64,000 bases of DNA from Thuidium tamariscinum (Eukaryota > Streptophyta > Bryopsida > Hypnales > Thuidiaceae), in assembly GCA_947034885.2 (NCBI GenBank), contig OX344749.2, positions 13,655,501 to 13,719,500 of the forward strand, given 5' to 3'. Positions 33,828-64,000 of this stretch are shown piece after piece (positions within the stretch are counted from its first letter, which is position 1; the number at the start of each line of letters is the position of its first letter). A program made the position numbers and the translations under genes. The notes below the pieces were generated by a model, which was given only the letters and a program-made list of their open reading frames with translations, searched no databases and was not told the DNA's origin.

Positions 33828-34176
33828 ATTTTAGAAACACAATGAGTCCATTGAATGATATTTTTTTGGCCAATGTATTTGTATGTTGGTTTGGAAGTAC
33901 TTTGTAGTATAATACTTCATTTAAAGAATTCCCACTTAGTTTGGTATAAGTTACAATTGTACACTAGAAGTCCCTTGAGTAGCATCACCAAATCATAAAA
34001 GGTGCTAATATCTAGGATTAGTATTAATGTACAAAAATTGCTCAAAAAACACAATCAATGGGGCAATTTAAGCTTCAAAAAAAATTGTTTGGCAAGTTGG
34101 CTAGTTCAAAAAGTGCAAAAGCACTAAAATGGACCAAACGGAAACAAAGTGCTAACAAAGGCTATGAGTGTTTTAA

Positions 34177-34920
34177 CCCCTAAAGCCCTGAGTTGTGTTT
34201 TTTGGCAACATGAGTTTTTTGGGCAACTCACTACGAATGGATTTTTTTCTTTTTTTTCTTTGAAATGTTTATACAAGATGTGCCCAAGGAATAGCTTTAA
34301 GGCCCAACAATTTTCACAACTTTTGACTTTGTGGTTAAAAAGTTATGGCATGATATGTTGTTTTCTTTACTTGGAGGGCAGCCCGGGCAGCTGAAAAAAC
34401 TTCTTTAAGAAAACTTTTTTTTTCAAAAGTGAAATTTCATATTGATTCTTTAGGTTTTTACAGACATGGGAAGCTTTGTTTCCTTCCATTTGGATTAAGG
34501 AATCAAAAGTTATGAGGAATTTTAGTTTGCGGGTAGGTATGGTTTTCAAAGATTCCATACCTACCCGCAAACTAAAATTCCTCATAACTTTTGATTCCTT
34601 AATCCAAATGGAAGGAAACAAAGCTTCCCATGTCTGTAAAAACCTAAAGAATCAATTTGAAATTTCACTTTTGAAAAAAAAAGTTTTCTTAAAGAAGTTT
34701 TTTCAGCTGCCCGGGCTGCCCTCCAAGTAAAGAAAACAACATATCATGCCATAACTTTTTAACCACAAAGTCAAAAGTTGTGAAAATTGTTGGGCCTTAA
34801 AGCTATTCCTTGGGTACATCTTGTGTAAACATTTCAAAGAAAATAAAATAAAAAATCCATTCGTAATGAGTTGCCCAAAAAACTCATGTTGCCAAAAAAC
34901 ACAGCTTAGGGCTTTAGGGG
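34177..34920. mobile_element. TTAA-flanked near-perfect palindrome, two 366-base arms
   Basis: TTAA lies at 34173-34176 and 34921-34924. Between them the left arm (34177-34542) and right arm (34555-34920) are inverted copies with only scattered differences, joined by a 12-base loop (34543-34554). Each arm starts CCCCTAAAGCCCT, the end shared with the TTAA family. Because of the symmetry, both strands carry almost the same 84-codon frame; this is a by-product and not a gene. High arm identity against decayed surroundings means the duplication is recent or is being maintained. A transcript would form a long double-stranded RNA. Confidence 0.85.
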
Positions 34921-34924
34921 TTAA

Positions 34925-44548: not shown

Positions 44549-45185
44549 CATAATATGGTAAACAATACATTTTTACAACTTTCATACAACACAAATATAA
44601 TTATGTATGATAGTGAAATACATAACATAGTAAACAATACGTTTTTACTACTTTCACACACACACATTACAATTATGTATGATAGTGAAATACATAACAT
44701 AGTAAACAATACGTTTTTACTACTTTCACACACACACATTACAATTATGTATGATAGTGAAATACAAAACATAGTAAATTATACATTTTTACTACTTTCA
44801 CACACATTACAATTATGCATGATAGTGAAACAGAAGACATAGTAAACAACACATTTTACTACTTTCACACATGCACACGCACATTATAATTAAGCGTGAT
44901 AGTGAAAGATTGAACATAGTAAATAACACATTTTTACTACTTTCACACACACATTGCAATTATGCATGATAGTCAAATTCAAAACATAGTGAACAACATA
45001 TTTTTACTACTTTCACACACACACATACATTATAATTATGTGTGATAGTGAAATACAGAATATAGTAAACAACACATTTTTGTTACTTTCACGGACATTA
45101 TAATTATGTATGACAATGAAATACAAAAGATGATGAATAAGACATTTTTACTACTTTATCACACAAAGATTATAATTATGCATAA
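44549..45185. repeat. Minisatellite, about nine units of about 70 bp
   Basis: A unit running ACATAGTAAACAATACATTT, TTACTACTTTCACACACACA, then TTATGTATGATAGTGAAAT recurs roughly every 65-75 bases. The first units are most alike and the last ones most worn. Each unit has dyad symmetry (ACTACTTTCAC against GATAGTGAAAT). The repeat keeps one frame open on each strand for a few units, but nothing suggests it is translated. Confidence 0.85.
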
Positions 45186-47899
45186 TAGTAAAGCAAATTT
45201 TTTATTACTAGCAACACAAAATCAAAGAAATTACTATTGTTTAGAAGGTTATTAAAAAGTATTGATTATAATTATGCATAATAGTAAAGCAAGTTTTTAA
45301 TTATTAACAATAGAGAATCAAAAAAAGAACTATTGTACATAATGTTATCAAAGGTGTTTTCACAAAATGGATGAAATGGAAGTTGTTATTCCCTCTTTTG
45401 AAGTGGTAGTGATTGGAAAACCATATACATTTAAGTGAAAAGCAAACTTTGATTTTAAAAATACTTGGATGAAAGCTACTATAGTATCTCAATAACTATA
45501 AATGAGCCCAAAAAAAACAATCCATCAAAATAATAGAGAACTCTACAGACCTTAAACTAGACGTGTTGATTCTCTTTATATACAAATTTGCTCTTTAGAC
45601 AAAGAACAAGATGAGTCAAACCTTGAGAATCACCTAAAAAAACTTAAATTAGAATTCAAATACCTTAAATATTTTAAATAATAAAATTTCAAATGTAAAT
45701 ATTTAAATTAAAAATCTTTAAAAAGATTTTTTTTGGTTTGTTGTAGCCTTTCATTCCTAAAGTTTGGAGTGCAATTATCATATCTAATTTAATTATATCT
45801 TATTCATTTTATTTGTAGATTTGTATAAAACATCAATTCTAACCCCTAAAAGTTTTAGACTATGTTTTGCTCTACAACTATCATTTCCAAGAGAAGTACC
45901 CAATATTTGAAAAGAACATTATGTGAATAATGTTTTTGTAGGATATTTTAGTTTAGTACTTAGACAACATGGAAAAAAGAATTCCTAAATTTCAGCCACA
46001 TAGATTGCAAGATATTACTATTTGAAGTTACAAAAATCCTTTTTTTAACAAGTGTTGTGGAATCATTGCAAAAAGCACTAACCACTTTTGTAGGTTTTTG
46101 CAGAATTTGTTCTTATCTAATGCTAAAACTTTTGATTAATGAATCTAAAGCCCAAACCAAAAAAAACATTTCTAGGATTTTTGATTGCAATAATATCCTA
46201 TACTTTCTAGAGTTTAAAAAATATCATTTTATTTTTAGGTTATTTTTGTTTATTTATCATACTTTCAAGATTAGGATTTTAATACAATTTATTGGTTGAA
46301 ATTAATGATATTTGGTTGAAATTTTGGTGTTCTGTTTTTATAGTAGGTAGAGAATGAGACATGTCCTTCCTAAAGGACATCCACAAAAATATTATTTTAT
46401 GACCTTTACATTAGTGCAAGGCTAAATAGGCCTACCATGCACGTATATTTCAAGACATTAGAAATTATTTTGAACTCATTTTTTTAGTCAAGCCTCATCA
46501 CCGCATAGTCTTCTCAAATGGCCAATTTTTGGTTATGCTGAAAATTGTTTTTCCTATTTTCAACAAATTAAAATGTCAATGTATGTATTTTCTACGACAT
46601 CATCTTTGACATTGAATTCTTGGAAAGAAAATACATATGTAATGTACTATTTTATGATGAAATAGCTTGATAATTGACTATTTAATAATGACAAGACGTA
46701 TAGACCATACAGGATCTTTTTCAAAAACTATATTATATGTCTATATCGAAGAATTTGTTCTTACAACATATAGACGGATATTATTCTTAGGAATTAAATG
46801 AAGTCGGGGATTGTATAAGTGATAATTTGGGTCTAAAAGTAACCTCCCACATAGAGGTACATTTTGCTTTCTTTAATGCACCAATAGTATATGTTTTAGG
46901 AGGGGCTTTCTTTTAATGACAAACACATTTCAACCTTTGAAATTTGTAACTACTACAAAGGTCAAAATGTTATAAAACAACTTAGGTTGAATGCCAATTC
47001 CACTTCTCTTTGTACAAAAAATATACTAGAAATTATTGAGTGGAATTCTACTTCCCAACAAAAACAAGTGTTGAACTCTTCAATTTTGGGAGGGGTCCCA
47101 TATTGGCCTCCCCATTCCAGGAGCATGCAAAAATGTAAAGCATTCTTATTTGACTCAAACCAACTTTCTAGTATCTCAAGACTCTAAGCTAGACATTAAT
47201 AATTGAGTCCAACTATGTTAGTGAAGAGAAAGTACTAATACCGTCAAATTGTAGATATTATTGATTCAGTAGTTCCCTCTAGAATCGCACTTCCTATGAA
47301 AATGTTGTTCATCTTGTGCTTATAATAAAATCAATAATGTTGTGTGATTAAATGAATATATTGTAAATAAACAATAATATGAATTCATTGAAAGTGGACT
47401 ACAAGAAAATCAAACTGAAGAAAAATTCAATGAAAGATGTACAAGCAAAATTAAAACTATAATTTCAAAAATTTTATAATCAAACCTCCTTTTTCATGCT
47501 AATCAATGAAAGAGGGGGAAAACTAGGTGATTACCTCCTCTAATTGCGTTGTTAATTGTAAATGTAATTGTATACAAAATTTAGAAACTCATATTGAAAA
47601 ATAATAGTTCATATAAGAGTTGATGTTATACAATCTATATCTATAAGATATAGATAATAGACTTTACAATATATCAAAGGTAATTTTATAAAGTGATAAA
47701 GATTTTAACTTCTAAATACCTAGGACATTATTTTTGGGTAGAACATCAAAATTCCTTTAAACTTCATAAGAAGAGTCAATATTGATTCTTTTGGATAGAT
47801 CTCCAAATAGAAATCAAATGACATTTCAAAGAGAAATGAAATCTCAAAAAAATATTATTTTGAATATTTTGAATGTTAAATTTTTTTTTTAAGTCTACT
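45186..47899. other. AT-rich desert with a TTAA-family left end
   Basis: CTAACCCCTAAAAGTTTTAG near 45.84 kb is a worn left end of the TTAA family; no right end is found. No gene is supported. Confidence 0.45.
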
Positions 47900-47903
47900 T
47901 TAA

Positions 47904-48821
47904 CCCCTAAAGGACCAAGGCCTTTTTTCTGTCAAAAAACTCTCAAAACTGCCATTTTTGTTGCATTCATCCAAGAAAACAAATTTTTTTTTTAAGAATC
48001 TAACCGTAGGATCTTGTACTTAACTTGATTGAGATCAAGTGGTAAAAATTTCATGAAGTTTGACCGTACAGATTGGAAGATATGAGCATTCAAAGTTGGA
48101 AATAGAAGTTTTTTTGAACTGTGGTTTGCAATTTCAGATGACTTTGACTGGAATTTGTATTAAAAAATTGCACTATAGACTTTGAATTTATAATATTTTG
48201 TGTTAAGAAATTGAGTTGAGAGTCTATGAAAAAAATTTCACACAAAAAACACTTGATTTTCATTCTTTAAAAAATTGTTAAGTAGATGTAGGTCCAAGAT
48301 GGAAAGAAAAACAAAATGGTTAATAATTGTAAGATGGGATTGAAATACAATAATCCCAATGGTGAGATTGTTCTAGAAAGTAAACATAACCTTTTCCAAC
48401 AATTTTTTTTGAAAAATTGTGAAAATTGCATTCAAAAATGAATCCTATAAGTTATTTTTTCAAAAAATTGTTTAGATTGCCCGAAAAACAAGATTGTCCA
48501 TAACTTTCTCATTATAAGTCCAAATAGAGTGAATCAAAGCTTCACATGTAGGAAAAAATATATTATTTTAGAAAAAAAAATTAAAAAGTTAAATTTTGAC
48601 TTTTTGAAAAAAAAAATTCTGCCCGCCGAATGAAAGTTTGGGCTTTTTGTGGTATAACTTTTGCTCCCGGTCACCAATTGAAATAAAAATTTCATTCCCA
48701 TGAAGCTAATCAATTTTCCTATCTTATGAGAAAGTTTCAAAAAGATTCATTAAAACTTGAGGTGTAGGGAACTTGCCCGAACTCCAAATTGTCCCTCGAG
48801 GGGACAATGGTCCTTTAGGGG
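47904..48821. mobile_element. TTAA-flanked element I, inverted copy of element G
   Basis: TTAA lies at 47900-47903 and 48822-48825. It starts CCCCTAAAGGACCAAGG and ends GGACAATGGTCCTTTAGGGG. Length is 918 bp. Read in reverse it follows element G box by box, including GTCCCTCGAGGGGAC next to the end and GCTCCCGGTCACC further in. Non-coding. Confidence 0.8.
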
Positions 48822-48825
48822 TTAA

Positions 48826-50008
48826 GCATCAATTATCTAATAGAAAACCAAATGGTTTATGATTTTCTGATAGAAGTTTCTATGAAGTGTTTCCCTTACA
48901 AATTTTATTTTATTAGTGTTACAAGCTCTTAGTAAAGAGCCTCAAGTACACTTGATTATAATGAAAAAATAAAATGAAAGCCACTAATTGATAATGGTCA
49001 TGTATCAATGTCATGTCTCTGAATCTCATAATCCTTTTATGACCTCAATTTTTGACTTCCTATGTAAAAGTGGTTAGGAAAACATCAAATCACTTTCATA
49101 GTTTCAACACCTTTTACAAAAACACAATAAGCTTTCAATCCATTATGATAATGCTGTCTTTTCTTTTCCTTAAGTGATCCATAACAAATGCAGTTTGAAT
49201 TTGTATAGGTATAGTTTTAAATCATGGTAATGCTTTTCAAAGCTAACATTCTTTCAATTCATAATAATATTGTTGTGTTTTCTTTTCCTAAATTCAGAGT
49301 ACATGTAGTTAGACTTCATACTATTATATAATTTAATTTAAATCAATTGGTTACAATTCTCAAAGCTTTGGACTTCCTTTTCAATTTATCAATCAAACTC
49401 CATGCAACTTAGAAAAGTCTTTTAGAAATTGGATAAGGTAAGCCTATTCTATAGTGAACTCTCCTTCAAAGATTCAAACAAATCACATCCACAATTAGAT
49501 TTGACAACTTTCAAGGCTCCAAAACAATATGAAAATATATTGATGCACTTAGCACCAAATTTTCTAATAACAATTTACTGTATGAAGAATTCTTTGTTTG
49601 TAATTCCAATCAAATAAGACAATGAAATATTCAGACTGAATACAAACACTATACAAAACTCACTTGACACTAAACTTTCTAACAACAATTTCCTAACCCA
49701 ACAATAAAATATTTCTTTTATATCTATTGTAAAAATGAAATTCACATAGAATGAATGACAATTTTGCATTCCAACATTAACTAGCACTATACAACAAACA
49801 AAAATCAACTAATTATTACCATACATCCATACAACACAAAAAGAATTCAAAGCCATATGACAAAAATAAATAAATGAAAGTATGTTCTCCAATAACAATT
49901 GCAACACCTTAATATGAGAACATCCACATTCCCTATAAGGAAAGCATAAGCATCCCTTAAAGATTACATAAAAAACACAATCTGTGGTAGTCCTACCTAA
50001 TATTTCCT
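48826..50008. other. AT-rich spacer, no gene
   Basis: 3' flank of the minus-strand ORF ending at 50009. Short open frames only. Confidence 0.45.
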
Positions 50009-51262
50009 TCAAATTGTTGAAGTCTTCACACGTCTACTATAAGTAAATTCAAACTCAGAAGAATTTTGCTCTACAGCTGGACCAAAACCAATATTCTCTA
50101 AATGACGTTGACTAGCTTCTAAGACCTTCTTTTTCAATGCCAATGCTAAACCCAATTGTGCATATCCTTCATTTGAAATTGTTTGATGTTTAACCTCTGC
50201 AGCTTTAAAAATTGTTAAAGTTCCTTGTGTAGGCCTAAAAAAAACACCATAGTCTACAAATCGAAATTGACTTCGACTACATGTGTTAGAATTAAAGAAC
50301 CTATCAAACCAACAAATTATTCCAAAACCAGTGTCTGAATCATCATAGTGACCATTAACATGAAAATTTAATGTTGTTGCCATAGTTGTGAAAGGAGAAG
50401 ATCCTAATCTACCAATTGAAGTTTCAGCCACATTTGACAATATGTTTTCCCATTCTACTATCCAAGAAGTTAAGTGTTTTTTTAAATGTTTATAGATGGT
50501 ATTAGTTGTACTATTAGCAATATAATCTAAATCTATAGCACTAGGAGGTTGTTTACCAGGGAGACATCCGGTACCAGGAACTTTAACTGATTGTTTATAG
50601 CGATCAAACTGTCCATTACAAATTCTAGCCCCAAACATGAACTGGTAGTTCATTTTAAATTTGTTAGACCGCTTTACAATTCCTGCTGTCTTACATAAGT
50701 TTAGTAAAGTGAATGCTAGAAATTCACTCTCATGGAGACCAAAAAAATCAAAAATGACAAGACCCACTAATTCATTAACATCAACTAGGATGCAACTTTC
50801 TGTAATTTCAAGATAATTTGATGATTTAATATAATGTTTTCGTTTTTGAACCCTACATACCTTTGAAATGAAACTTGGTATGGAAATGCCACGAGTCCTG
50901 AAGGATCTAATGATTTTCTCATCATCAGACAAAGACTTTTCTTCTTCATCTTCCAATACTCCCAAGTCCACATCCATAACAACCGTGTTGACCACGTCCT
51001 CTTCCACACCATCCAGAACTTGATCTTGTATTGCAATCTCTGGATCTTCATTGTTCACCCCTCCACTATTTAGATCCCCTTTGTCTTCAACCTCCACTTG
51101 AGAAATCCCGGTCCTCAAACTATATCGTTTGCATTCTCTGGCATGGCGATTGCTTCGAATATGGGAATCCCATTGAATGGGGCATGAAATACACTTTTGA
51201 CATATTAAACAGTCGTTATGAAATGTTGGTTTAATTGGCTTGAATTTTTTAGGCCTTATCAT
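50009..51262 (-). CDS. C2H2-finger protein with probable TET/JBP-like 2-oxoglutarate/Fe(II) dioxygenase domain, 417 aa exon
   Basis: An intact minus-strand frame of 417 codons ends in TGA at 50009-50011. A strong splice acceptor (T-rich tract, then TTTGGCAG) directly precedes GATG at 51263-51260, so this is probably the last exon, or the start if translation begins at that ATG. Residues 18-40 form a U1-like finger, C-x2-C-x12-H-x5-H (C18, C21, H34, H40). Residues 56-120 are acidic linker. The C-terminal half has LNFHVNGHYDDSDTGFG (298-314), carrying HxD (H305, D307). GVFFRPTQGTLTIF then VKHQT follow, with a distal His at H359. This order (HxD, Gly-rich strand, distal His) fits the double-stranded beta-helix of TET/JBP-like dioxygenases, which oxidise 5-methylpyrimidines in DNA. 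The usual downstream Arg that binds 2-oxoglutarate is not evident (Lys residues at 377-379). The finger and context suggest a transposon-borne copy. Confidence 0.5.
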   Translation of the reverse strand: MIRPKKFKPIKPTFHNDCLICQKCISCPIQWDSHIRSNRHARECKRYSLRTGISQVEVEDKGDLNSGGVNNEDPEIAIQDQVLDGVEEDVVNTVVMDVDLGVLEDEEEKSLSDDEKIIRSFRTRGISIPSFISKVCRVQKRKHYIKSSNYLEITESCILVDVNELVGLVIFDFFGLHESEFLAFTLLNLCKTAGIVKRSNKFKMNYQFMFGARICNGQFDRYKQSVKVPGTGCLPGKQPPSAIDLDYIANSTTNTIYKHLKKHLTSWIVEWENILSNVAETSIGRLGSSPFTTMATTLNFHVNGHYDDSDTGFGIICWFDRFFNSNTCSRSQFRFVDYGVFFRPTQGTLTIFKAAEVKHQTISNEGYAQLGLALALKKKVLEASQRHLENIGFGPAVEQNSSEFEFTYSRRVKTSTI

Positions 51263-51304
51263 CCTGCCAAATATAAGAAAAAAAGATAATATTACAAAAC
51301 ATGT

Positions 51305-51840
51305 CAAAAACTATTTTGTAAAATCTTAGAAATATCGTATTACATATTAAACTTTGTAGCACGGACATCGACAATCCCACACCCCAAAAAATCCAAAAAA
51401 CACATGGATAAAAAATAACTTAGATTGGTCCACTTCACCATGACAGTCCCACTTGCGTAAGCAAGGTCCCTGACTGGCTTCCAATGTACCCACAAGAGAG
51501 ATTTAGAAAACACTAAAGAACATAAGAAAATGTTAACAAAGCATCCATAAAAAAAATGAATAAACCCCTCAAAAACTACTTCGAAAAATCTAAAAAGAAT
51601 CCTATTACATATCATATTTGTAGCACTCAATGCACTTATATTAATAATCCCAGACTCCAAAAAACCCAACAAACACATGGACAAAAAATAACATAGATTG
51701 GTCCACTTCACCATGACAGTCCCACTCGCGAAAGCAAGGTCCCTGACTAGCTTCTGGTGTACCCACAAGAGAGATTTACAAAACACTAAAAAACATAAGA
51801 AAATGATAACCAAGACACTATTAAAAAAAGGACAAAAAAA
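51305..51840. repeat. 273-bp tandem duplication upstream of the TET/JBP-like exon
   Basis: Two copies in direct order with a period of 273 bp. For example TAGATTGGTCCACTTCACCA begins at 51421 and again at 51694, and AACACTAAAxAACATAAGAA closes each copy. Similarity over the unit is high but not perfect. A 157-codon minus-strand frame spans both copies and shows the same repeat at protein level, but it is hydrophobic and unlikely to be a real protein. The unit probably lies in the intron or promoter of the exon ending at 50009. Confidence 0.75.
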
Positions 51841-52235
51841 AATGTAGATCTATGGGACTAGTTCAAATGCTACCACTGACTCAAAGGACTAAAAGAATCC
51901 TTTAGTAAAGAATGTACATTCTATAATTTCACATAAAAACAAAGAAATGCCGTAAGGTACTAATACTACTATGGTTAACACATTGCTTTATCTTCCAAAT
52001 TAGTCAGAAGAATCAATTGAAAGAATCATATGAGAGAAACTAAGTGAATGTTAGTATGGCACTTCACCAAGATATGTTGGCAAAGACATTGTATGAGCGG
52101 AAACAAACTCGCATGATCATGTATCAACCTTTAACCATGAAAGCAGATTCACAAAATATGAAGAATTTACCTTCAGGACTAAAAAATAAATTAAAGCGAT
52201 TGTATCAGAAGATGAAGATGATCTGAACTATCCAT
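51841..52235. other. Spacer, AT-rich, no gene recognised
   Basis: A 60-codon plus-strand frame (52044-52226) is lysine- and methionine-rich without a recognisable domain. It is the transition from AT-rich to the GC-richer block of gene fragments. Confidence 0.35.
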
Positions 52236-52396
52236 AGTGCACTCAGTTCTTGAGCCAGCTTCAGAAAAACCACCAAGTCTGCAAATTCATAGAAGTTGAG
52301 ATGACCTAGGCATGGCTCATGAACATTCCAAGGCATGTAGGTTTGGATTGTGTTCAAGTCCAACGCTATCACTCTCAGCAACCTATCCTTCCAGAG
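52236..52396 (-). pseudogene. Exon fragment of a GH35 beta-galactosidase
   Basis: On the minus strand, a splice acceptor (TTTTCCTTGCAG) at 52397-52408 is followed by WKDRLLRVIALDLNT, then IQTYMPWNVHEP, then FADLVVFLKLAQEL. This is the N-terminal region of plant glycoside hydrolase family 35, whose pattern is W-DRLLR-KALGLN-IQ-Y-PWN-HEP, then F-G--DLV-FLKL. The fragment keeps the first part of the catalytic barrel. It stops before the G-YICAEW block that should follow. No other GH35 exon is nearby. A gene fragment, not a gene. Confidence 0.85.
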
Positions 52397-52739
52397 CTGC
52401 AAGGAAAACATTCCCACTGTATACTAAGCACACATTTCTACCTCACAACAAAAAGATCAATAGCTCCCATCAAGAATGCTTGAACCATGTTTCAATTAAC
52501 CCTAACGACCAAGGAGGCCTATGTACTTATTCTTAATATTTTCTTATTTGCATTAATCATGTAAGAGAACCACAACAATATCAAGAACACAATCTAGTTT
52601 AAGACATGAAAATATCATGTTTGTATTGTGTTGAAAGAAATCATCAAGACACTCACTTATTATAGTAACGACCAGCGGGATAACTCGGATAAGACAATAG
52701 TAGCAATACCTCATAGAAAAACTTCGTCGGTCCTTGGTT

Positions 52740-52890
52740 ACTTCCTTGTTGCCTGTACCACTGCCAAGGACCTCCACGACAACCTCAACACCATTGGGAA
52801 GCTTTCCAAAATAAACAGATCCAAACCCTCCTTTGCCAATTTCTCTATTGCTCTGGTTAGTTCTGCCACTGAGAAGGATCTTGCACCTCC
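52740..52890 (-). pseudogene. Receptor-like kinase fragment (subdomains I-II)
   Basis: Minus-strand frames give ARSFSVAELTRA, then, after a small deletion and frame change, IGKGGFGSVYFGKLPNGVEV followed by VVEVL. This is the plant receptor-like kinase pattern of juxtamembrane F-(Y/V)-EL--AT, nucleotide-binding G-G-FG-VY, then V-AVKVL. The ATP-binding lysine of the VAVK motif is Glu here. The kinase core beyond subdomain II is missing. It is clearly inactive. Confidence 0.8.
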
Positions 52891-53223
52891 AACATTGGGA
52901 GCTCAATCTATCACTACTTCTACAGCAAGAGCCTTGGCTACACTTGTAAGGATTTCCACGACCTGGTGACCAAACGAGTGTATTTCCAGCTTGATACCTT
53001 CACACAAGTATAAACAAAATTGTTTAAATTAGTAAGTACACATTTGATTTAGCACCTTTGCAAGAACAATGCAGAGCATATATTATTTTGAGGGACTACA
53101 AGACTTGTAAATTTCGACCGTAAGGTACTCTTATCTTTCAAGGTCACATGTGAACCTTAAACCCTAGATTCTTAAACCCTGAAAATCTAGAATCCTAAAA
53201 AAATCCCCTCACAAGGCAGCGAT

Positions 53224-54110
53224 ACAAACCGTTCGCTCCAGATGATCGACCTCCTTGGGATGCCAATTTGCGTCTGCCAAAGCCTCTTCAGCAGCACATT
53301 GTGCTTAAGCTATAAAAGCTGGTTCCGCTGGTTTCTGCAACCAAATTCAGAAAAAGACATACACTCAAGAACGGGTACAGCGGGTATGAGAAGCCCCTGA
53401 TAGCCAAAGATGAAGTAACCAATGGTTGCAGCCGAAATTTCAAAGTACTCAATTCTCAATCCTTAATCTTCAATCAATTGTGATTGGCATCTTACTGCAA
53501 AGCAACTGTAAAATCTACTCTTAATGAGTTACAACATGATTCATGTCTTCAAGTATGAGAGCAGACTACACAAAAACAGAGAGCCAACAAGCAGTTTACA
53601 TTTTTCAAATTTCTTGATAATTTCCAGGTCAAATCATTCGATTGATATCTTATTTAAAAGTTATCTATGCTTCTACCAAGCCATTCCCATGTTCTCAGTA
53701 ACCAATTTGCAGTGGCTCATTCTCTGGCTAGGGTTTCAGAAAGACACTTATACGCTCAACAAAGTGAGGATCCATGATTTACCTGATATTTCTCAACATC
53801 AAAGTCACCAGCAGCAGATCCACGGGGCACAAGAGCAGCCACTCGCGAAGGAAGCTGCTGTAGAAATCCAGCGTCCTTCAAATTCAAACTCTCAGGCACT
53901 CAATCAAAGATTTTGGTGTCGTGGTGTTGCCTCCCGAGTTGGATGTTGGTCAAAATGGTGCTTTTTCTATATTAAGCGTGACTGGTAGGAGTATCACAAC
54001 ATGCTTGACCAGGCAAGCAGACGAGTGCCACCCTCAATCCAGCCTACACCACGTTCGAGCTCCAATTGATACAGAACTTCAATCACCAACCCCAGATGAG
54101 AACGGTATGA
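53224..54110 (-). pseudogene. Mitochondrial-type 3-oxoacyl-ACP synthase (KAS) fragment, two exons with intron
   Basis: The minus strand 53876-53783 encodes DAGFLQQLPSRVAALVPRGS then AAGDFDVEKYQ, ending at a GTAAAT donor. A TTGCAG acceptor at 53335-53340 opens the next exon: PAFIA, a stop, QCAAEEALADANWHP, then HLERT. These fit the KAS N-terminal region (SRVAA-VPRG---GEF, then FI-YA-CAA-EAL-DA-W-P, then ERTG) in the right order and phase. The 448-bp intron (53335-53782) is kept, so the copy was made from DNA and not from mRNA. Weaker similarity to the first KAS exon (GART, then W-RL) lies near 54030-54110. The condensing active-site cysteine region is absent. A stop and a frameshift show it is dead. 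Confidence 0.8.
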
Positions 54111-54564
54111 GACTTCCATTGACAAGCACTTTACTCAAAAGGGTCGTTGAGCATTAGTTGAAAGAGCCATGTCTTCGAAAAAGAAGTGGAATTGCGCTTG
54201 GTCTTCCTCCCTGTTCACTCAAGATACGAAAATATCAGCCCAGTTTTTTCATTTAAAAATGACATGAACTTCCTCAATATTCAGTAAATAGACATTGGAC
54301 TTCAATATATCCAAACATAATATTAGATTGTGCAATCACATACTAACTTACAACCATTTTGCCTAGTAATCATGGACTGCTCTTTGGATTTTGTAATGCA
54401 GTGAAAGTCGGAGGACTTTGCCAAAAGGTTGATAGATTCTAGCGTGTAACCAAGAGTTCTAAATTTAAAAGGACAACAAGCTCGTCAGAATTTCAGCAGT
54501 AGGCATCTGAAACGACCATGGCACGCAAAAATTACAAAAATGAGCTCCACCATTAGCAGACCAA

Positions 54565-54777
54565 ATGGGCTCGACCGTTCTTGCTCATATGGTTACTCTC
54601 ATACGGGTTCATCCGTATGTTTCCTGCAGTTTGTTGGTTTTCCTCATACCTCTGTTCTGGCCGATTTTGAAGTTCTTTTCGCCCTTTAGTGCTTGCACAC
54701 CAGTCTTGAGCGCAATCGATCGATTCCAGCTTGCTTGCACTCCTGCTCCTAGAGGTGTTACTAGAGATTCTAGTTAA
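54565..54777 (+). CDS. Unrecognised 70-codon frame with a hydrophobic stretch
   Basis: It starts at a true ATG. Residues 18-40 (VSCSLLVFLIPLFWPILKFF) would span a membrane, then a Cys- and Pro-containing tail follows. It sits among fragments of other genes and may itself be one; I cannot assign it. Confidence 0.2.
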   Translation: MGSTVLAHMVTLIRVHPYVSCSLLVFLIPLFWPILKFFSPFSACTPVLSAIDRFQLACTPAPRGVTRDSS

Positions 54778-54799
54778 TAAGTCGAGATTGTTTTATACC

Positions 54800-54965
54800 G
54801 ACGTTGACGGAATGATGATTCTCCTCGCGCGTCTCGTTTTCCCAACGCTTCCAACTGTGTACTTGCCATAGCCCCAGCAGCACCGTCAAGCAGCTGTAAA
54901 GCACATGCACCACCGCCAGCACGAAAATGAAGATGTGAAGCTCGTGCAGACCAGCGGCGCTGATT
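54800..54965 (-). pseudogene. MLO family membrane protein fragment
   Basis: The minus strand encodes GLHELHIFIFVLAVVHVLYS, then CLTVLLGLWQVHSWKRWENE. This is a transmembrane segment and the start of the following cytoplasmic loop of plant MLO proteins (GLHQLHIFIFVLA--HV-YS--T--LG, then W--WE-E). MLO proteins have seven membrane helices and bind calmodulin; only this one helix is present. The frame then runs into unrelated sequence. A single-exon fragment. Confidence 0.85.
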
Positions 54966-55380
54966 ACTTGCACCCGCCCCTGCAACCCCCACACACGCAT
55001 AGCCACACTAGTCCAAGCCCTGCCATCCGAAAAAATTGTCCACATCATCCTCAGATTTATGAGAGAAGTTAAATCATCTTACTTAAAGCTTAGTCCAATT
55101 CTGTTAAGGGCCGCAGGAATTGAACCCTAACTTATGACCTTCACTTCCCATCGGCGCCCATGGATTTACGCTCTTTCAAAATCATCTAGTTTTGCACTGT
55201 CACCTAACCTCGGAGGACCTCGAGAGTCAGGTTTATAGAGGATGCCTACTGTCTGCTTACAGTACGTGCCACCGCCCTGAAATCACCAATCCTTCAAACT
55301 TCAATCCTATAATTAACATGCTAGAATCCCGCCCTTGTTGGAGTAATATGCAAACAAACCTAGAGCCAACAGATTGCAAA

Positions 55381-55493
55381 GAAGTCCTTACAGATGCGTG
55401 CTGGGCCCTTTCTTATCTGTCGGATGGCACCAACGACAAGATCCAGGCCGTTATTGAAGCCGGTGTCTGCCGCCGACTTGTGGAGCTCTTGCT
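55381..55493 (+). pseudogene. Importin alpha fragment (armadillo repeat exon)
   Basis: The plus strand encodes [20 protein letters not shown], then [17 protein letters not shown]. This matches a conserved armadillo repeat region of importin subunit alpha almost residue for residue (the usual CPRLVELL reads CRRLVELL here). The exon ends at a consensus donor GTAAGA at 55494. A possible acceptor lies at 55625, followed by HPSDD in phase, which would fit the family's LLLHPS, but similarity stops there. It is the only fragment on the plus strand in this cluster. Confidence 0.85.
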
Positions 55494-55625
55494 GTAAGAC
55501 TCTTATTTTGCTGTTGTTCCATGTTCAGTCACCCGCTCTGGTTGTTGCCGTCCGGAAGCCTTTTTCTGAGCGTGCGTGTAGGATTAATTGAAGACTGATT
55601 TGGGTGTTGTTCTGATTCCTAGCAG

Positions 55626-56819
55626 CCATCCATCCGATGACAAGGAGCTGGAATGTATTCCACGTGATAGTCGCCTTGTCAGCAACAGCCAGCAGAGCTG
55701 AGTCAAGTTCCGCAACAACGCGGCCTTCAACAAGCTCAGACACAGCGACCTTCACGGCACACTTCGCACACTCAACGTTTGACGCCACAAAGTGAATCCT
55801 GGCGACAAAAACACGTAATTTCAAGGAACCCTAAATTTCCTGCGAAATCAACACTGCGGTAATTGCAGTGTCGTGAATTTGAGTTTCTGGGATTGCAGAA
55901 GGTGGGATTTATGGCGGCCGGGAGTGTGATCAGCTGCGCAAGCGCACCGCCGGGAAAGTGTCCCGAACTGTCCGTGGTGGGGTCTCACCGCCACCCTCCC
56001 CTCCTGTAGGTGTTCTTTTTCGCCCCGGTCAGTCCCTCTGTTCTCATTCCCGCATTGCGAACAGTCCTTGTAGTCGAAGCCAGCCCTTCCGGCTTTGGAG
56101 CGACTCATCCACTAGTCTTCTTTAGTAGCAACTTCTCCAAAACCACATGAAGCACTTCAAAGACTAGCACTTCAGAAATATCTCAACCTGACCACCTTCC
56201 AGCTTCTGAGTAAGCTCTGCAAAAACTTACTCAAGTATCTCCTCTTAACTGACTCTGGCGAACTAGAAACGCAGCACAATGCTCACTTTGCTGTACCCGA
56301 GCCTTGACAGCAATTTCTTCTGGTATTCGTCTTATTCCCTTTCGTTCCAGAGAAGAAACAAAACGATTTATGCACTCAATCTTGGATCAAGTCTTCCCCA
56401 GCGATACTGTGATTACTGTCTTCCTAGAGGAAAACCTGATTAAAAAATCATCCAAGACACTACCCTATTAGTAAACATGACTATCAAATCAGTGAAAAAA
56501 AGCTAGTAATCATATGACAGAAATGGCGGCTCACAAGACCACTCAGCAAACTGCTAAACAAAAGCTACAGGTTGAAGAAGATAGAGGTTTCTGCGCGAAA
56601 ACGTAACCAACAGAACCAAATCGACCAAGACTATAGACGCATAAACTTCTTTCATTGCTTTAACCCTCGACGAAGTGAAAGAATTCGAAGTAGGTTGAAA
56701 TTCGAACATCCGGTTCCGAAAATCCAATCACCAACGAAACACACAGCACAACAACAACAAATTATTGTTCTACACATACCTGTTTCAATAACAAAATCAG
56801 TGAGTGAGTCGTGTGATAG
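55626..56819. other. GC-rich block with unrecognised exon-like pieces
   Basis: Composition remains like that of the gene fragments. A minus-strand frame at about 56244-56400 reads IECINRFVSSLERKGIRRIP, then EEIAVKARVQQSEHC. It is well-formed protein that ends near a GTAAGT donor-like site, so it is probably an exon of a further host gene that I cannot name. Another minus-strand frame at 55525-55824 (VASNVECAKCAVKVAVSELV) is similar in quality. Neither has its neighbours. Confidence 0.35.
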
Positions 56820-57014
56820 TTAGTCAATGCCATATTCACACAGCGACGCTGAAACTCCATTTGGCCAATTTGTAGCATCGATGAACTGCTCTGGAAACAC
56901 AGCGATTGCATTCCCGTTATGTGAAAGGGAGTTGCCGAACGTATAGACAGCAGGAAATGAACAGATCAGGAGGCATCCCACCAGCAATAATCCGTGCAAA
57001 GAACTCATCAACAT
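56820..57014 (-). pseudogene. GDSL esterase/lipase first-exon fragment
   Basis: An ATG at 57014-57012 opens a minus-strand frame. It has a signal peptide (MLMSSLHGLLLVGCLLICSF), then AVYTFGNSLSHNGNAIAVFP and WPNG. Plant GDSL esterases begin exactly so: secretion signal, block I FGDSL-D-GN, then AAFP. The nucleophile serine is present, but the preceding Asp is Asn (GNS instead of GDS). The frame ends at 56820 soon after, where an intron would be expected. The remaining catalytic blocks are absent. Confidence 0.75.
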
Positions 57015-57430
57015 GAAATACAATGCGTAACTTTAGTGAAATACAATGCAGTATTGGACCAAAATGAAGAAGACCTCGATCTTCACGGCTTACCCTCGGT
57101 TGCACACATACAACACGCGCTGACTTTCTGCAAAACTGTAGACGGCAAAACAATTGATAGTCTTGAAGCCCACACAGAGCCCTCCAGAAGTAAAAATGAT
57201 TAGGAAAAAAGGGCGTCGGTGCAGGAAGAGGTGGCGCAGCTGCAGAGATTAGGGTACAGCGGCGCAAAGCACTAACGGCACAATGCCCAGCAGATGAAGA
57301 CTGCCAGTTCAGGGAAGTTGGTGCAACGACGAAGAACATGCATACGAAGAAGGAGCTTCCCGCCTTAGGGCAAGATCGAACAGACTGGCACTACACGAGA
57401 ATGACGGCTTCACTTTGATTAAGTTCAGGT
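57015..57430. other. GC-richer flank of the GDSL fragment
   Basis: Probably upstream leader carried along with the GDSL first exon. Minus-strand frames lack recognisable domains. Composition returns to AT-rich desert at about 57.43 kb, which I take as the outer edge of the fragment cluster. Confidence 0.35.
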
Positions 57431-59489
57431 AAGGTCCTTACGCTCTATCGACTATTATTTCAGTTGATATTTTTGGAAACTCTGAAGTACCATAAGTTTA
57501 GTGCCACTACTAATCCCTGCGAAATAGTTATTAATATGGAACTTAAATTATTTTTGTTACAGGATTTTAATGGCTACCAAAAGTGCTTTCCAACATACTC
57601 TAGCATGCTTTATTTGAATTCCATATGATAATACTATGAAAATTCAAAGTATTTTTTATAGAAATATTAAAATATTGGAAGTCAAAAGGATGGACCTACA
57701 ACCACTAATTGTTAGCCTCATTGCCTATTACATACTTTGTTACTAATCTTCAACTAGGTATGTATGAAATTTTTTACATTTATTTTTTTGGCATGAAATG
57801 AGATGTTCTCTTTGCTTCACTAGGATTTTAGGCTCTTCGGAGGGAAATTTATTTTTATAAGAACTTGAGAAGGAAACAATGTAAAAATAATAATATCAAA
57901 TAGATTATTTTGACCACGAAAATCTTTTAATTTCATTAGGGGGTTCAATTCTAAAGACAAACATTATGGTGTGAACTTAAATTTAATGTTCCTTCTATAA
58001 AGAAAATACAATGGACTTTGAAAATACATCCAACATTCAAATCGCAATAAACTAAGCAATATTGCAAATTTTTTCGAAATTCAATATAGAATACAAACTA
58101 CAATACATGACATTTTCATCGGTTGGGCTCTATTTTTTTTAAAATATTTTTGTGCATTAATTGAAGATTTAGAGTAAAGAAAAATGAACTCTCTAACTAG
58201 ACTAAAAACAATATATTTTGAAATCCTTTGTTTTTTAAGTAACTTTTTGTTTATATAGACAAATAGTAGCAATAGTAGAAACTCACTAAACAAGTCCTAA
58301 TATATGTAGACTATAGTCAATAAGCTTGCAATTACCTTAAGGCGATGGGATGGATGGAATCATGACTTCCTACCTAATGCCTCAACTCTCCAATTATCTC
58401 TAATTGCAATTTTTTTCAATAGATTATTATTACATTGATAAATATTTGTCTAATTCTTTTTTAAACTAAAGTTATGCAAATATTATAAGAAGCTGTACAT
58501 TGATATAATAGAATACTTTGCAAAATATTTATTAATATCATTTGTACATTTATAAATATATTGCACAACATGGTTTATTAAAAAGAAGAAGACTAAACAT
58601 CTATGTAATATATAAGCATATTTATTAAAATGTAAAGAAGAAATAATATGAAAATTAATACAAAAGATACAAATTTTTTGGAAGCATCACCTTCTTAGAC
58701 TATAGTATTATACACAAAGTTTTCATAACATGTTTTAATACTAATATATATAGACATAGAAACTTTAAGTACAAGACAAAATAGAAAAATGTTGTAGTTT
58801 ATAAAAATAAAATGAAACTTCTGGAGCTCTTGGAATTGCATTAATTATAGAAATCAAAATGTGAAGTTGAACTTCAAAACTTCAAAGTAGTAGTTTAACC
58901 TTAGATCTTTGCATTTTTATTTCTAATTTCAAAAAAATTATCAAAGTAAAAGTAGGTAACTCCAATTTAACTAAATTATAAATATAGACAAATCTATATA
59001 GCTATAGTCTAAAATTAATATCATATATGTAGTTGAATCATAAAAATATAATCTATGGCTCTATGCATAGTGCTCATGCAGAATTTTGTATTAAAATGAA
59101 TGAAAATCATCATTTTGGATAAATTAAAACTAAGAGGAAATAAAAGTAGACAAATTTATGCTACCAACAAACGCATATTCAATGAGAAATAAGACGTGTG
59201 GGCCCCTAAGAATCACTTTCCAAAATGACATGTAGGAAAAAGGCGGATGCAAATTAACAATTAATAAGCATTATCTTTTAAATGATAAAAATAAAAATAT
59301 ATGTGTAAAGTATATATACATATTCAATGTGTGTAAATTCATCTTTGGATGAACCGATGCATCGATGCCATACTTTGGATAGTTGACACATATCACTAAA
59401 GCATATGTGTCAACCCATTTTCTTGTCACTGGTGCCCATTATCTTCATTCCTGCGGAAAAAATAGCAAGTAGGATGAAATTGAAAATGA
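57431..59489. other. AT-rich desert, no gene
   Basis: No supported coding frame or RNA gene. Confidence 0.5.
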
Positions 59490-60024
59490 ATTGAAATACT
59501 AAATTGAGAATAATTTATTTATGGAAATGAAAAATGCCACTCCTAATGGTTGCAATATTGTAATAAACAATTTTTTTCCATTAAAATTTTTATTTTTTCA
59601 AAAATATTAAAGATTAAATTAAACTAAAGGTCTTCAAACTTTTTTGGGGTGAATAGAGATTCTATAACTACCCTCAAACTACCCCAAACTAAAAATTAAT
59701 CAAAATGGAATGATTTAAAGTTTTTCATGTAGATATAAATTTAATAAAACAATTTCAAATTTATATTTTTTTAACTGTAATTTTTAAAGAATTTTTTTTT
59801 AGCTACCTAGGCTACCCATTGCCCATTGTATAAAGAAATCAACATATCATGCAAGAATGTTTTAACCATATAGTCAGAAGTTATAAAAATTCTTGGACCT
59901 TGAAGCTAATCTTGGGGAAAGGTTTTATGAAGATTTCAAAGAAAAACAAACAAATTCTGTTTGTAATGAGCTACCTAAAATTGCTATATTGCCAAATAAC
60001 GCAATTCAAGGCTTTAAGGATTAA
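59490..60024. mobile_element. Degenerate TTAA-family copy, reverse orientation
   Basis: It ends CAAGGCTTTAAGGATTAA at about 60024. Read in reverse it follows the copy at 17157 (ATTGCTATATTGCC, AGGTAGCTCATTAC, then AAAGTTTGAAGACC-type and AATGGTTGCAATATTG boxes). The other end is missing. Confidence 0.5.
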
Positions 60025-63000
60025 AGTAAGTATTACCAATTGCAAAGAGTGATAGGAACAGCCAGGCAAGTTCCAGTCGATCATACACTGAAGAATCTGG
60101 TGCTTGAGGATCCTCTAGACAGAGATGGGAAGTTCAGGAGGCTCCAACAACATCAGGAGATGACGAATTTCGACACGAAACGTCCTTAGGGAACCTAATC
60201 TGGAGTTATCACTACAAGAACTTCTTATTTTGATTGATAATAGGATACGGAATATCAAGAGCTTTCAAAAAATACATTTATTCAAATATGATAACAATAT
60301 CATTCAAAAAATCAATTGACATGTTGATGATAAGAAATTTATTGTACACCAAAGAGAAGGGATGGAGGAGAAGCCATTTGTTTTTTATGAGTTATTGAAT
60401 AGTTATCAATTTACAATATGATGAGTATTAAAAGAATAATAATATATCACAGTAAGTTGTCTTAGTGATTTTTCTATTAATCTAACTGAGATTTGATTTT
60501 AATTAAATTTTCCCCAAAAAATTTCTGGTTTCAAATTAGAGCTTTTCAAAAACACTGTCACAACTTGGAACACCACTAATTTAATGAAATTGACATCCTA
60601 CAAAACAAAGTTGCAAATTGCAAGTTATCAATATAATTTATGTTAAAGTACAAAACCTATGTATCAACTTTTTTATGTAAATATCAATCATGTATCCTAC
60701 TTAACTCAAAAGAAAGTTGTACCACTTCTCTTTTGTATGAAATATACCAAATCCCTCCCTTTTTCACAAGTGATTATGGCTGTGGAGGCCAGATGGCGTT
60801 TGCATGCGTTAAGGCAGTCCTACCTGCCGTTGGTGGTTTAGTTGGGGTCCGGAGTTGCACTTGAGGTACTCTGGATAATTCAGTTGGGTACTCCTAATAA
60901 TAGAAATGACTAAAAATCTTTGAATTTACGCAATAATTTTGGAGTTTTTTGTTTGAATTTGTAAGGCACTCTAAAATGGAAGTTCACAGTATACAAAAAT
61001 TTGCATCAATTTTGGAAGTATTTGAATTCACAAGGAACACTAATATGGAGGTTCTAAACAATTCTCACTACACAAACAATTTACTACCAAACTTAGTGAA
61101 GTATACCTTCTTCCATTATAACTACCAACACTAATCAAATAGAAGATTTTAGACTATATTCTAATTTTGATGTTTTAATCCCTCAAAGACTATTGTGCAC
61201 TTGGAGGGCAAAATGGATTTTTGATAATCTTCATTTCTATTGAAACTTAAAAATTGAATAGACAATGTAATAGCTTGATGAAAATATAATTTTAATTGGT
61301 GCCCGGGAGCAAAAGTTATGCCATCTTAAATATAATTTGCACATCATTGGGTAGAAAAAAAAAGTCTAAAAGAAATCAAAATTAAATTAATTATTTTTCT
61401 TCAAAATCTTATTATTGTTTACATTTAAAGCTTTGATTCATTCCATTTGGATTCATGACTTAAGAGTTATGAACAATCTCGTTTTTTGGGCAATTTGAGC
61501 ATCTTTATTAGAAGATAACTAGTAGGATTCAATTCTACATGCCATTTTCATAGTTTAAGAAAAAATCGGAACAAGTTTAATTTTTCTTATTAGAGCAATC
61601 TCACCGTTGGAATTATCGTGTTACAATCCTAGCTTAGAGCTATCAATGATTTAGTTTTTCTTTCAATCTTGAACCTACTTCTATTTAACTATTTTTTAAA
61701 GAATGAAAATTTAGCTCCTTGTTTTGAATTTTTTTCTTAGACTCTCAATTCATTCTTCAAGACAATTTTTTTTAATTCAATGTCTATAATTCAAAAGTTT
61801 TCCACAACTATGGTAGTCAAAGTCATCTAAAACTATAGGCCATTGTGAATAAAAAACTTATTTTTTCAACTTTGAGTATAAATGTTTTCTAATCTATATT
61901 CTATAGGTTTAAACTTCATGAAATTTTATCATCAATCATCAAAATGAAAACCATTTTAAGGACTATTGCTAGATTTCAATAGCAATTAAATTTACTCTAC
62001 AATCTAATCTATACTATATCCTACCTTCATGTTATTTTTTGCAATATATATATAATTAATTAAAAACAAAAAAATGATGCTATTATCATCTACTACTCAA
62101 ACCAAATTTGTAGTTAAACCCTAGTCTAATCATGTGCAAGCTCCACGTCTTAAATGTCAAAGTTTAGTGAATATTTGTCTTCATTTCTTCTATTGAATGT
62201 AAATTCTGTAACAAATTTATCTATTAACTTTTTATAAATAAATTTTCATTAATTTTTTATTATTGAATATTAAATCCTTTTGACATCCAACATCTTCTCA
62301 ATGAAATCATTTAACTTGATGAAATCTTCTTGGTATAGTTGCATTGCAAAAAGCCTATCTTCCACTTTATATATAACAATTTTGAATCATATACAGAAGT
62401 TGTCAAAGTTGTATATCCATGATGAAATTAATCATAAGAATGGTTGACACTAATGTACAAAAGTGATACAAAGTGATACTTTTGAAAAGCAAGTATAATA
62501 ATCATTTATACATCCTAAATCTTGAAGTTGATTCTCAATTTTTGGATGCCATAGATTAGAACCTTGAATGATATATCTTCAACATTTTTTAATTCAACCA
62601 AGTTTGAATTTATACTTTGACTACATTTTCCTTCAACCATGTATTACATTCAAACAAAGTGGACACTTTTTTAATAATGAGAGGGATAATTAAAATACTA
62701 CCCACAACAATGGAGGATTGAAATAAAGAATTATTCTAAACTTTAGGGTTGCTATTTTTCTCTTTCAAAGCATAAGATACCCTCTTTAATGTGAATGTAT
62801 CTCAAGGAGTGAATTTTGGATTTCAAAACCAAGTTCAATTTTTCATATTTGATCATTCATATTAAATTATAAATTTATATGTTTGTCCCAATGGTAAATA
62901 ATATTTTATATGTTTCTATGTTTTCCCCAAAGGTGAGAAAATGGGGCAATGAGGGATAACATTGGGTGTTCTAATATTGAACCTATTCTAAAATTGACCA

Positions 63001-63259
63001 TAAAACAAATGAACTTATTACTTTCTTCAATGTATCAGTAGTGTACATTTTATGAAATAGTTACTTTTAGTGACTCTTACATTTCAACTTCAAAAATTTG
63101 TAACTAATTCCATAAAGGTCTAAAAAAATATGAAACAACTTGGGTTAGATGCCAATTCCATTTTTCTTCCTATAAAAATATGCTGAAAATTGTTTTAAGG
63201 AATTTAACTTCCCCCAAAATTCAGTCAAATCTTAAAGGTTACTTTACAAGCAAACTAAA
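60025..63259. other. AT-rich desert with one worn TTAA-family copy
   Basis: Near 61174 TTAATCCCTCAAAGACTATT, then CACTTGGAGGG, starts a worn copy of element G (GGTGCCCGGGAGCAAAAGTT and TTCTTTCAATCTTGAACCTA follow in order up to about 61.9 kb). At 60.05-60.20 kb and 60.77-60.87 kb are two short GC-richer patches with no identifiable product. No gene is supported. Confidence 0.45.
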
Positions 63260-63263
63260 TTAA

Positions 63264-64000
63264 CCCCTAAAGGACCAACATGCATTTTTGGGTGTATAGA
63301 AATTTTGGGCAGGTACGTGTGATTGGAAATTTGAATATTTTGGGCTGAAATTTTAATAGAAGGTGGGGGCGAGGAATATCTTCATGTATACCAAATTTCA
63401 TGACATTTGGAAATATGAGTAAAAAGTTATGGCCTAATATGTTGCTTTTTTTCGTAACTGGGCAGTCCGGGCAGATCAGAAAAATCACCTTTTTCAAAAA
63501 TAAAAATTTTAAACTAGTTTTCTACATTTATATACAAGTGGAAAGCTTTGAATCATTCCATTTCAATCAAAGAATCAAAAGTTATGAGGTTTTTTTGTTT
63601 GCGGGCAGTTATGGATTCTCTATTATTAAAAAAACTTTGAAGTCATTTATTTCACTCGATTTTCAATATTTTTGGAAAAAAATAAAATCCTAGGATTGAG
63701 ATTGATTGTTACAACATTACAACCATTGGGATTGGCATTTTTTAATTCCACAATTAAATTCTTAACAATTTAGTGTTATGAATCATTCTCTACTTCTTTC
63801 TACTTACTATTTTTTTCCTATATGTTGTACAATTCCAAATGATGTGAAATTTTTTGAGCATATCCCCATCTTGTTTAGGAAACTTAATTCAAAGAAGCAC
63901 CACCATTTTTAACATTTTTTCTTTGAGAAGTGAGCATGTGAAGTGCAGCTGCCCGGTTTTTAGTAGGATTGAAAAAATGGTTTTGGTGAATTTGAATGCT
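63264..64000. mobile_element. TTAA-family element J, left part, runs off the window
   Basis: TTAA lies at 63260-63263, followed by CCCCTAAAGGACCAACA. It shares GGGCAGGTAC with element G, and GGGCAGTCCGGGCAG and GCGGGCAGTTATGG with the palindrome at 34177-34920, so it links the two subfamilies. Its right end is beyond the window. Confidence 0.7.

Follow-up and report, generated by a model that had tools for sequence, protein, structure and literature searches.

How DNA transposons capture pieces of host genes is debated: fused neighbouring insertions, aberrant transposition and break repair have all been proposed. Patch repair in plants was reportedly described by Wicker in 2010 and by Vaughn and Bennetzen in 2014. 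Among the closest described systems, Tgm-Express1 is a 5.7-kb CACTA element of soybean with five host gene fragments (PMC1947982), and Pack-TYPE elements are by definition non-autonomous and are explained by fused neighbouring insertions (PMC8903248), which carry the DNA between them (PMC8903248, PMC13317346). In Ac/Ds elements, filler DNA consists of genic DNA copied in, introns included, with repair suggested as its source (PMC3260210). Fungal TET-bearing EnSpm/CACTA transposons have 5'-CAC..GTG-3' ends (PMC12730594).

Here, we describe a block of nested host gene pieces in a window of 64,000 nucleotides (the whole stretch analysed) from the moss Thuidium tamariscinum. Like Tgm-Express1, the putative CACTA-type element here packs fragments of several unrelated host genes, introns included, into a few kilobases; in contrast, it has nine sources nested six deep, an element of about 40 kb and transposase ORFs of its own, and the available part of the Tgm-Express1 description does not state that fragments are nested in one another (PMC1947982). 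Like the Pack-CACTA/Pack-TYPE elements outlined in PMC8903248, it carries copied gene DNA inside a CACTA-type left end, but it differs in its nested insertions and in the predicted transposase ORF within the shared segment. As in the Ac/Ds fillers and plant patch repair, the inserted DNA is genic, includes introns and points to a repair source, whereas the layers here order and relatively date nine captures in one element. The combination of a CACTA/EnSpm-type transposase and a TET/JBP-like gene resembles that in the fungal elements, although the host is a plant and the TET/JBP match lies under the Pfam cut-off (PMC12730594).

Results

The captured block (52244..57092) aligned over nearly its whole length to donor DNA of the same genome, far beyond chance, and its pieces traced to nine loci on five contigs. 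The original prediction had placed fragments of at least six unrelated host genes at about these coordinates. Profile and PDB matches and the donor alignments bear out the fragments, while the count rises to nine and the row in which they had been read proves to be a nest six levels deep, in which insertions that came later interrupt six of the nine pieces. The genome search for donors gave 38 matches, of which some were left out: a second KAS-like locus (L026; two matches covering some of the KAS piece at 89-92%), an importin paralog on C2 (L027), a GH35 paralog (L028) and weak matches at C9:7846199 and C10:19426683. Among the genome matches found, no locus outside the three copies of the segment described below held the donors in the same order.

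The outermost layer (layer 0) is a GH35 beta-galactosidase piece on the minus strand. Its left part (52244..52655; donor C4:13577943-13579081) was 89.8% identical over 372 columns and 84.1% over 44 columns, and it resumes at 57016..57092 (C4:13579081-13579156, 85.7% over 77 columns), the two parts overlapping by one base in the donor. The donor locus contains an additional stretch of about 0.72 kb with inverted repeats on both sides. Within GH35 lies layer 1, a minus-strand piece that we take, from recognised motifs only, to be GDSL-esterase-like; it occupies 52664..52688 (C9:14586239-14586215, 96% over 25 columns) and 56843..57016 (C9:14586218-14586045, 94.3% over 174 columns, 4 bp duplicated). 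Layer 2, also on the minus strand, is a receptor kinase in three parts: 52689..53068 (81-85% identical to paralogs), 55055..55127 (81-88%) and 56756..56842 (85-90%; aligned over 56759-56823, the remainder assigned from the letters by eye). Its donor paralogs lie at C1:687k, 814k and 840k.

Two branches lie inside the receptor kinase. In the first, mitochondrial KAS exons and an intron (layer 3, minus strand) run over 53070..53902 (C1:49315677-49316510, 88.0% over 850 columns), resume at 54688..54764 (C1:49316510-49316586, 93.5% over 77 columns) and resume again at 55007..55054 (C1:49316582-49316629, 95.8% over 48 columns, 5-bp duplication). Two layer 4 pieces interrupt it: the start of a gene with an 889-aa ORF (53903..54684; C9:22007334-22008126, 95.2% and 92.1%), one part of which is inverted relative to the other, and a minus-strand MLO exon (54765..54996; C6:24370063-24370297, 97.9% over 235 columns). 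In the second branch, an unnamed gene (layer 3; 55128..55378, C1:5774339-5774590, 91.8% over 256 columns; resumed at 56114..56755, C1:5774590-5775232, 96.3% over 643 columns) encloses a plus-strand importin-alpha exon and intron (layer 4; 55379..55635, C3:26103315-26103059, 97.3% over 257 columns). The importin piece resumes within 56034..56113, followed there by the upstream end of its donor (26103372-26103325). It encloses layer 5 (55636..56033; C1:28465960-28465565, 97.0% over 400 columns), DNA whose donor lies upstream of phosphoglycerate-kinase (PGK) ORFs (E 8.2e-29 and 3e-37) situated about 0.9 kb and farther downstream.

The identities of the GH35 (Pfam E 1.6e-12), MLO (Pfam E 1.8e-20) and importin-alpha pieces (Pfam Arm 8.3e-9; rice importin alpha-1a in the PDB, 5.2e-32) are firm. 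The KAS piece comprises two exons in the correct order with weak matches to plant mitochondrial KAS 1w0i (E 0.53 and 0.0076), and Pfam gave no match to it over the cut-off. The kinase piece is likewise weak (Pfam 0.19, below cut-off; SYMRK E 0.0021, in the first part); in its donor, a malectin-like domain lies upstream (E 5.7e-16), and a kinase was matched at 2.6e-4, under the Pfam cut-off. The GDSL piece had no Pfam match and no relevant PDB match, one downstream donor ORF that was scanned also had none, and the 889-aa ORF had no Pfam match.

At the junctions, the outer donors were continuous across the inner insertions, with either a duplication of 0-5 bp or a loss that ranged from a few bp up to about 30. 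The footprint was 0-1 bp with about 8 nt of filler for GDSL, a 4-bp duplication for the receptor kinase, a 5-bp ACTAG duplication with 10 nt of filler for MLO, a loss of 0-3 bp for the unnamed gene, 0-1 bp for importin and 0 for the PGK-upstream DNA. For the 889-aa-ORF piece the footprint was about 1 bp, accompanied by a 7-nt microhomology, GCACTCA being common to both donors at its left junction; an explanation of this piece as an inversion between short inverted repeats was rejected, as it needs one repeat copy to be absent. The KAS insertion lost 28 bp as judged by the closest-placed receptor-kinase paralog, and 33 and 89 bp by the other two; this loss of about 28 bp or more counts against the overall reading proposed below. 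No transposon ends were seen in the junction displays. Variable small duplications and losses, microhomology and junctions of this kind are those of break-repair filler.

The importin piece is circularly permuted, with 9 bp missing at the opening and a clean circle joint. A second importin locus (C3:26088k) agrees with the first in its order, so that the piece is permuted relative to both. This would suit a route in which most pieces came in as small extrachromosomal circles that opened and joined the chromosome at break sites. However, the other eight captured pieces have no such permutation, and two break ends priming divergently at one donor site would yield an identical product; we consider this explanation improbable for the block.

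Divergence from the donors drops with depth in the nest, from 11.4% to 1.8%: GH35.114, receptor kinase.104 or.113, KAS.083, the 889-aa-ORF piece.054, the unnamed gene.042, importin.024, MLO.022 and PGK-upstream DNA.018. For the receptor kinase, two of the three paralogs were used (L024 was left out), and the ordering test took the L023 value. Seven of the eight parent-child pairs were in age order (permutation fraction 0.007; Spearman -0.88), and the layers therefore accrued successively. The exception is GDSL (.055 over 199 sites, largely coding), which looks younger than its child, the receptor kinase (.104); since the three paralogs match about equally, the true receptor-kinase donor may be missing from the donor set. 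The probability of such nesting was 5.6e-11 when 34 kb of the element outside the block was allowed for and 2.1e-5 when only 5 kb was; the calculation used rounded lengths and took insertions to land uniformly and free of constraint, and these values are a rough guide only because the block was picked for visible clustering and captures were sought in it alone. A single catastrophic replication-based event, with serial template switching, might have built the entire block, and the microhomology, the one inverted half and the one permuted fragment fit it; yet such an event would string the pieces together in a chain and would not make outer ones resume at nearly the same base after every insertion, and the age ladder opposes it. 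We regard it as highly unlikely.

The block lies in a segment present in three near-identical copies, the window's own on contig 1 and another two on contig 7, with pairwise identities of 99.58-99.995% over the portions compared (1 mismatch in 21,806 columns for the contig 7 pair; 71 in 26.7 kb between the contig 1 copy and one contig 7 copy). All three share a sharp left border at window position 44426, where the plus-strand terminus (44426..44450, identical in all copies) begins CACAGGGAG; immediately before it, the sequence differs in each copy. This true border, 7.8 kb left of the captured block, and the copies bear out the capturing transposon that the original prediction had supposed. 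The left half of the segment spans 44426..64000, and sampled stretches and the last repeat seen carry it past the window's end, as far as about 83.2-85.7 kb when numbered as in the window, giving a length of about 39-41 kb with the right end extrapolated. A plus-strand tandem array of a 72-bp unit (TRF; 8.9 copies, 44547..45189) begins 121 bp inside the left end and was seen on the left side.

A right-end terminal inverted repeat was not found in the contig 1 sequence to 83500, the end being expected at about 83.2-85.7 kb. The search used CTCCCTGTG to 74000, CCTGTG over 60000-83500 (only two occurrences, neither terminus-like) and blastn of the left 200 bases. Repeats of 447 bp at 81449-83247 were rejected as subterminal repeats because they resemble exon repeats of another gene. 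The paralogous flank on contig 7 predicts that AATCCAGACAGG-like sequence continues directly after the element. For a 3-bp target-site duplication, the candidates at the left end are GTA on C1 and TCT on C7:19927805. Apart from a direct duplication at 51.3-51.8 kb, a search of about 50-59 kb for Helitron ends or long inverted repeats yielded just short pairs, most of them chance-like. Rfam gave nothing at the gathering threshold.

The shared segment contains a predicted tnp2 transposase ORF (L029:8810-9355, minus strand; Pfam Transposase_21, E 1.4e-7, 31.3 bits against a cut-off of 28.6), and a contig 7 sample inside it (73000-73299 in window numbering) was 99.3% identical. A minus-strand ORF at 50012..51310 has a TET/JBP-like 2OG-Fe(II) oxygenase domain (Tet_JBP in Pfam, PF12851, E 1.2e-6, 28.3 bits, where the curated cut-off is 34.9) and also weakly matches a C2H2 zinc finger; its best PDB match, weak at E 0.058, is algal CMD1, in which H.D and a subsequent H align. 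We read the segment as a putative giant CACTA-type transposon, a label limited to the transposase, the CAC start in all three copies and the left subterminal repeats because the right end, terminal inverted repeat and target-site duplication are unseen. The Pack-CACTA model, in which adjacent insertions fuse and carry the intervening DNA, accommodates such an element and likewise places younger DNA deeper inside, but the nine dispersed source loci, the precise splitting of captured pieces and the junction displays without transposon ends make it very doubtful here. Helitrons often bear mixed gene pieces, but a left border of CAC rather than TC and a segment with a tnp2 transposase leave Helitron capture next to no probability; CACTA was also among the classes suggested in the original prediction.

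Discussion

Our results argue that the locus is probably a CACTA-type transposon of about 39-41 kb, with tnp2 and a TET/JBP-like gene, whose block was built by successive double-strand-break repair. Each of the eight later captures placed a short copied piece (about 0.2-1.0 kb, some with introns), whose source locus was unlinked or distant, within an earlier captured piece that was otherwise left nearly whole. The footprints suggest that double-strand breaks in the element were repeatedly patched with copied genic DNA: break ends would prime synthesis on genic DNA, or join to it, by polymerase-theta or SDSA-type patching, and the traces of such patching would be duplications of varying length, minor losses, short stretches of filler and microhomology. 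The inverted half of the 889-aa-ORF piece would suit template switching, and the permuted importin piece a small circle, opened and then inserted. The completed element would later have moved or been duplicated to reach its present state, a single contig 1 copy and a contig 7 pair. A capturing transposon and stepwise break-repair filler had been set against each other as alternatives; the junctions and the divergence ladder indicate that each holds, the element being mobile and its cargo having come in by nested filler insertion in steps.

We regard the cargo as most likely passive. More tentatively, the capture site could be self-renewing, captured genic DNA being the preferred place for the next break and patch, which would give inward nesting and a dated core; a demethylase-like TET/JBP protein, encoded by the element and keeping it open, would prolong capture.

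From a nest whose donors are identifiable, one can read the order and relative ages of nine captures in a single lineage, along with a nearly exact footprint for each, and the repair model thereby becomes testable from sequence alone. The locus further supplies an example from a plant of a TET/JBP-like gene in a probable CACTA-type element, a pairing described from fungi (PMC12730594). The nested block is a legible record of gene-fragment pickup by a transposon over a long time.

Results

The captured block (window 52244-57092) consists of host gene pieces that donor alignments show to be nested in one another, not set side by side in a row. The window corresponds to contig 1:13655501-13719500, and its gene families and those of the donors (MLO, DUF247, malectin-like receptor kinase) point to a plant. 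A DNA search of the genome (363 Mb, 19 contigs) with the block gave at least 38 matches, 3 full-length (one being the window's own copy) and 35 partial; the count is a lower bound, as the search scores only the best candidates. Fifteen stretches of about 9.9 kb each, around most of the partial-match places, were aligned to the block. The original prediction of at least six unrelated host gene fragments in 52236..57014, read as a capturing transposon, was right about multiple unrelated sources, and every fragment that it named was present, but the alignments raised the number of sources to nine, on five contigs (C, contig of the same genome). These were GH35 (C4:13.58M), a GDSL-like gene (C9:14.59M), a receptor kinase (RLK; three paralogs at C1:0.69-0.84M), KAS (C1:49.32M), the start of a gene with an 889-aa ORF (C9:22.01M), MLO (C6:24.37M), an unnamed gene (C1:5.77M), importin alpha (C3:26.10M, matched equally well at 26.09M), and a stretch upstream of phosphoglycerate kinase (PGK) ORFs (C1:28.47M). 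The donors are still at their own sites, indicating capture by copying, and the KAS and importin pieces contain introns, as read from exon borders, indicating that genomic DNA, not cDNA, was copied.

The identities of GH35, MLO, and importin alpha were firm (profile or PDB match). KAS was identified by two weak matches with exons in the correct order. The RLK piece by itself gave a weak match; in its donor, a malectin-like domain lies upstream, and the kinase match is under the cut-off. The GDSL piece had no Pfam match and no relevant PDB match, and its name rests on motif recognition.

The GH35 piece covers 52244-52655 and continues from 57016, starting with the very donor base at which it was broken off. 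Inside it lies the GDSL piece, itself split by the RLK piece, which is split twice, by KAS and by the C1:5.77M gene. KAS is in turn split by the C9:22.01M exon and by MLO, the C1:5.77M piece by importin, and importin by the PGK-upstream piece. The nest is thus six levels deep, and all eight insertions after the first capture lie inside earlier cargo, which is unlikely under uniform landing (probability 5.6e-11 to 2.1e-5). This clustering could be due to captures in other parts of the element that went unseen, or to constraint acting outside the block.

Divergence from the donors decreased with nest depth (Spearman -0.88), and seven of the eight parent-child pairs were in the expected order, which 0.7% of shuffles equalled. 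The values were.114 for GH35,.104 or.113 for RLK,.083 for KAS,.054 for the C9:22.01M piece,.042 for the C1:5.77M piece,.024 for importin,.022 for MLO, and.018 for the PGK-upstream piece, the difference between importin and PGK-upstream, as between other neighbouring values, being smaller than the standard errors. GDSL was the exception (.055; 199 sites, mostly coding). Because divergence falls with depth, the layers were most likely added over a long time, not in a single event. The GH35 donor also contains a stretch of about 0.72 kb that has inverted repeats at its ends (L014:5315-6040) and is lacking in the captured copy; this is most simply an insertion postdating capture, a further sign of age.

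Junction footprints varied by event, with duplications of 0, 1, 4, and 5 bp, filler sequences about 8 and 10 nt long, and a 7-nt microhomology at one junction. Losses were 0-3 bp, apart from the KAS insertion, where 28, 33, or 89 bp of the kinase piece was lost, depending on the paralog compared. Junction displays of the block contained no transposon ends. Since duplications made by a transposase would be constant in length, break repair fits these footprints better. Rearrangement is seen in two fragments. The C9:22.01M piece has the part left of 22007460 inverted and placed after the part to its right. In the importin piece, the sequence is circularly permuted, with its two donor ends joined and 9 bp missing at the opening point; both importin loci keep the donor order, and the permutation therefore belongs to the captured copy.

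Similarity among the three copies, one in the window and two on contig 7, extends far outside the block. They share a left border at a single base (window 44426, CACAGGGAG), directly outside which the sequences differ. Rightward, they match past window numbering 83040, and the match between the contig 7 sample and contig 1 is gone at about 85741 (extrapolated offset); these limits put the size of the segment at about 39-41 kb, barring a large indel in between. Close to the left end of the element is a tandem array with a 72-bp unit, and the part beyond the window gives a Transposase_21 match that exceeds the cut-off. The contig 1 copy differed from one contig 7 copy by 71 mismatches in 26.7 kb, and the contig 7 copies differed from each other in 1 of 21,806 columns, indicating recent movement or duplication of an element that already held the whole nest. 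The contig 7 copies are about 26 kb apart and point in opposite directions, and each adjoins paralogous sequence (L009:1156-2105 and C7:19901808-19902777, the latter in L012-L013; 85% identical); one flank resembles an amino-acid permease exon.

Elsewhere in the element, about four 447-bp tandem repeats (L031:7449-9247; window numbering 81449-83247) have the look of exons that recur within a second gene, on the plus strand. Two more GC-richer stretches (L029:356-828 and L029:4305-4845) may be other captured pieces; the one ORF scanned in the former had no Pfam match above the cut-off. Just left of the block (51288-51837), a sequence of about 270 bp occurs twice in direct orientation, the copies being 73-85% alike. 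Outside the element are a near-perfect palindrome of about 755 bp (34171-34926; 96.6% identical to its own reverse complement) and a long plus-strand ORF with a DUF247 domain (41303-42973; E 2.2e-42).

The minus-strand ORF at 50012-51310 has a TET/JBP-like profile match below the Pfam curated cut-off and a weak zinc-finger match. Its closest PDB chain was algal CMD1, with H.D and a later H aligned.

Discussion

TET-bearing EnSpm elements are reported in PMC12730594. Those elements are fungal; in contrast, the TET/JBP-like ORF here lies in a probable CACTA-type element of a plant. Among the matches listed by a literature search for TET/JBP with plant or moss, judged mainly by titles, no title concerned a TET-bearing plant transposon.

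Soybean Tgm-Express1 (PMC1947982) is a CACTA element with five host fragments in 5.7 kb. Pack-CACTA capture is accounted for by fusion of neighbours in PMC8903248 and PMC13317346, and PMC3260210 describes filler and gene pieces carried by Ds elements. We make no claim that nested capture as such is unreported. The nest with its donors and footprints, the order of ages, the shared copies, and the transposase match are observed; break repair as the route of capture and the CACTA label are probable, and the cargo is presumably passive. We think that the carrier is a giant CACTA-type transposon, in which internal breaks would have been patched repeatedly, with a gain of host DNA.
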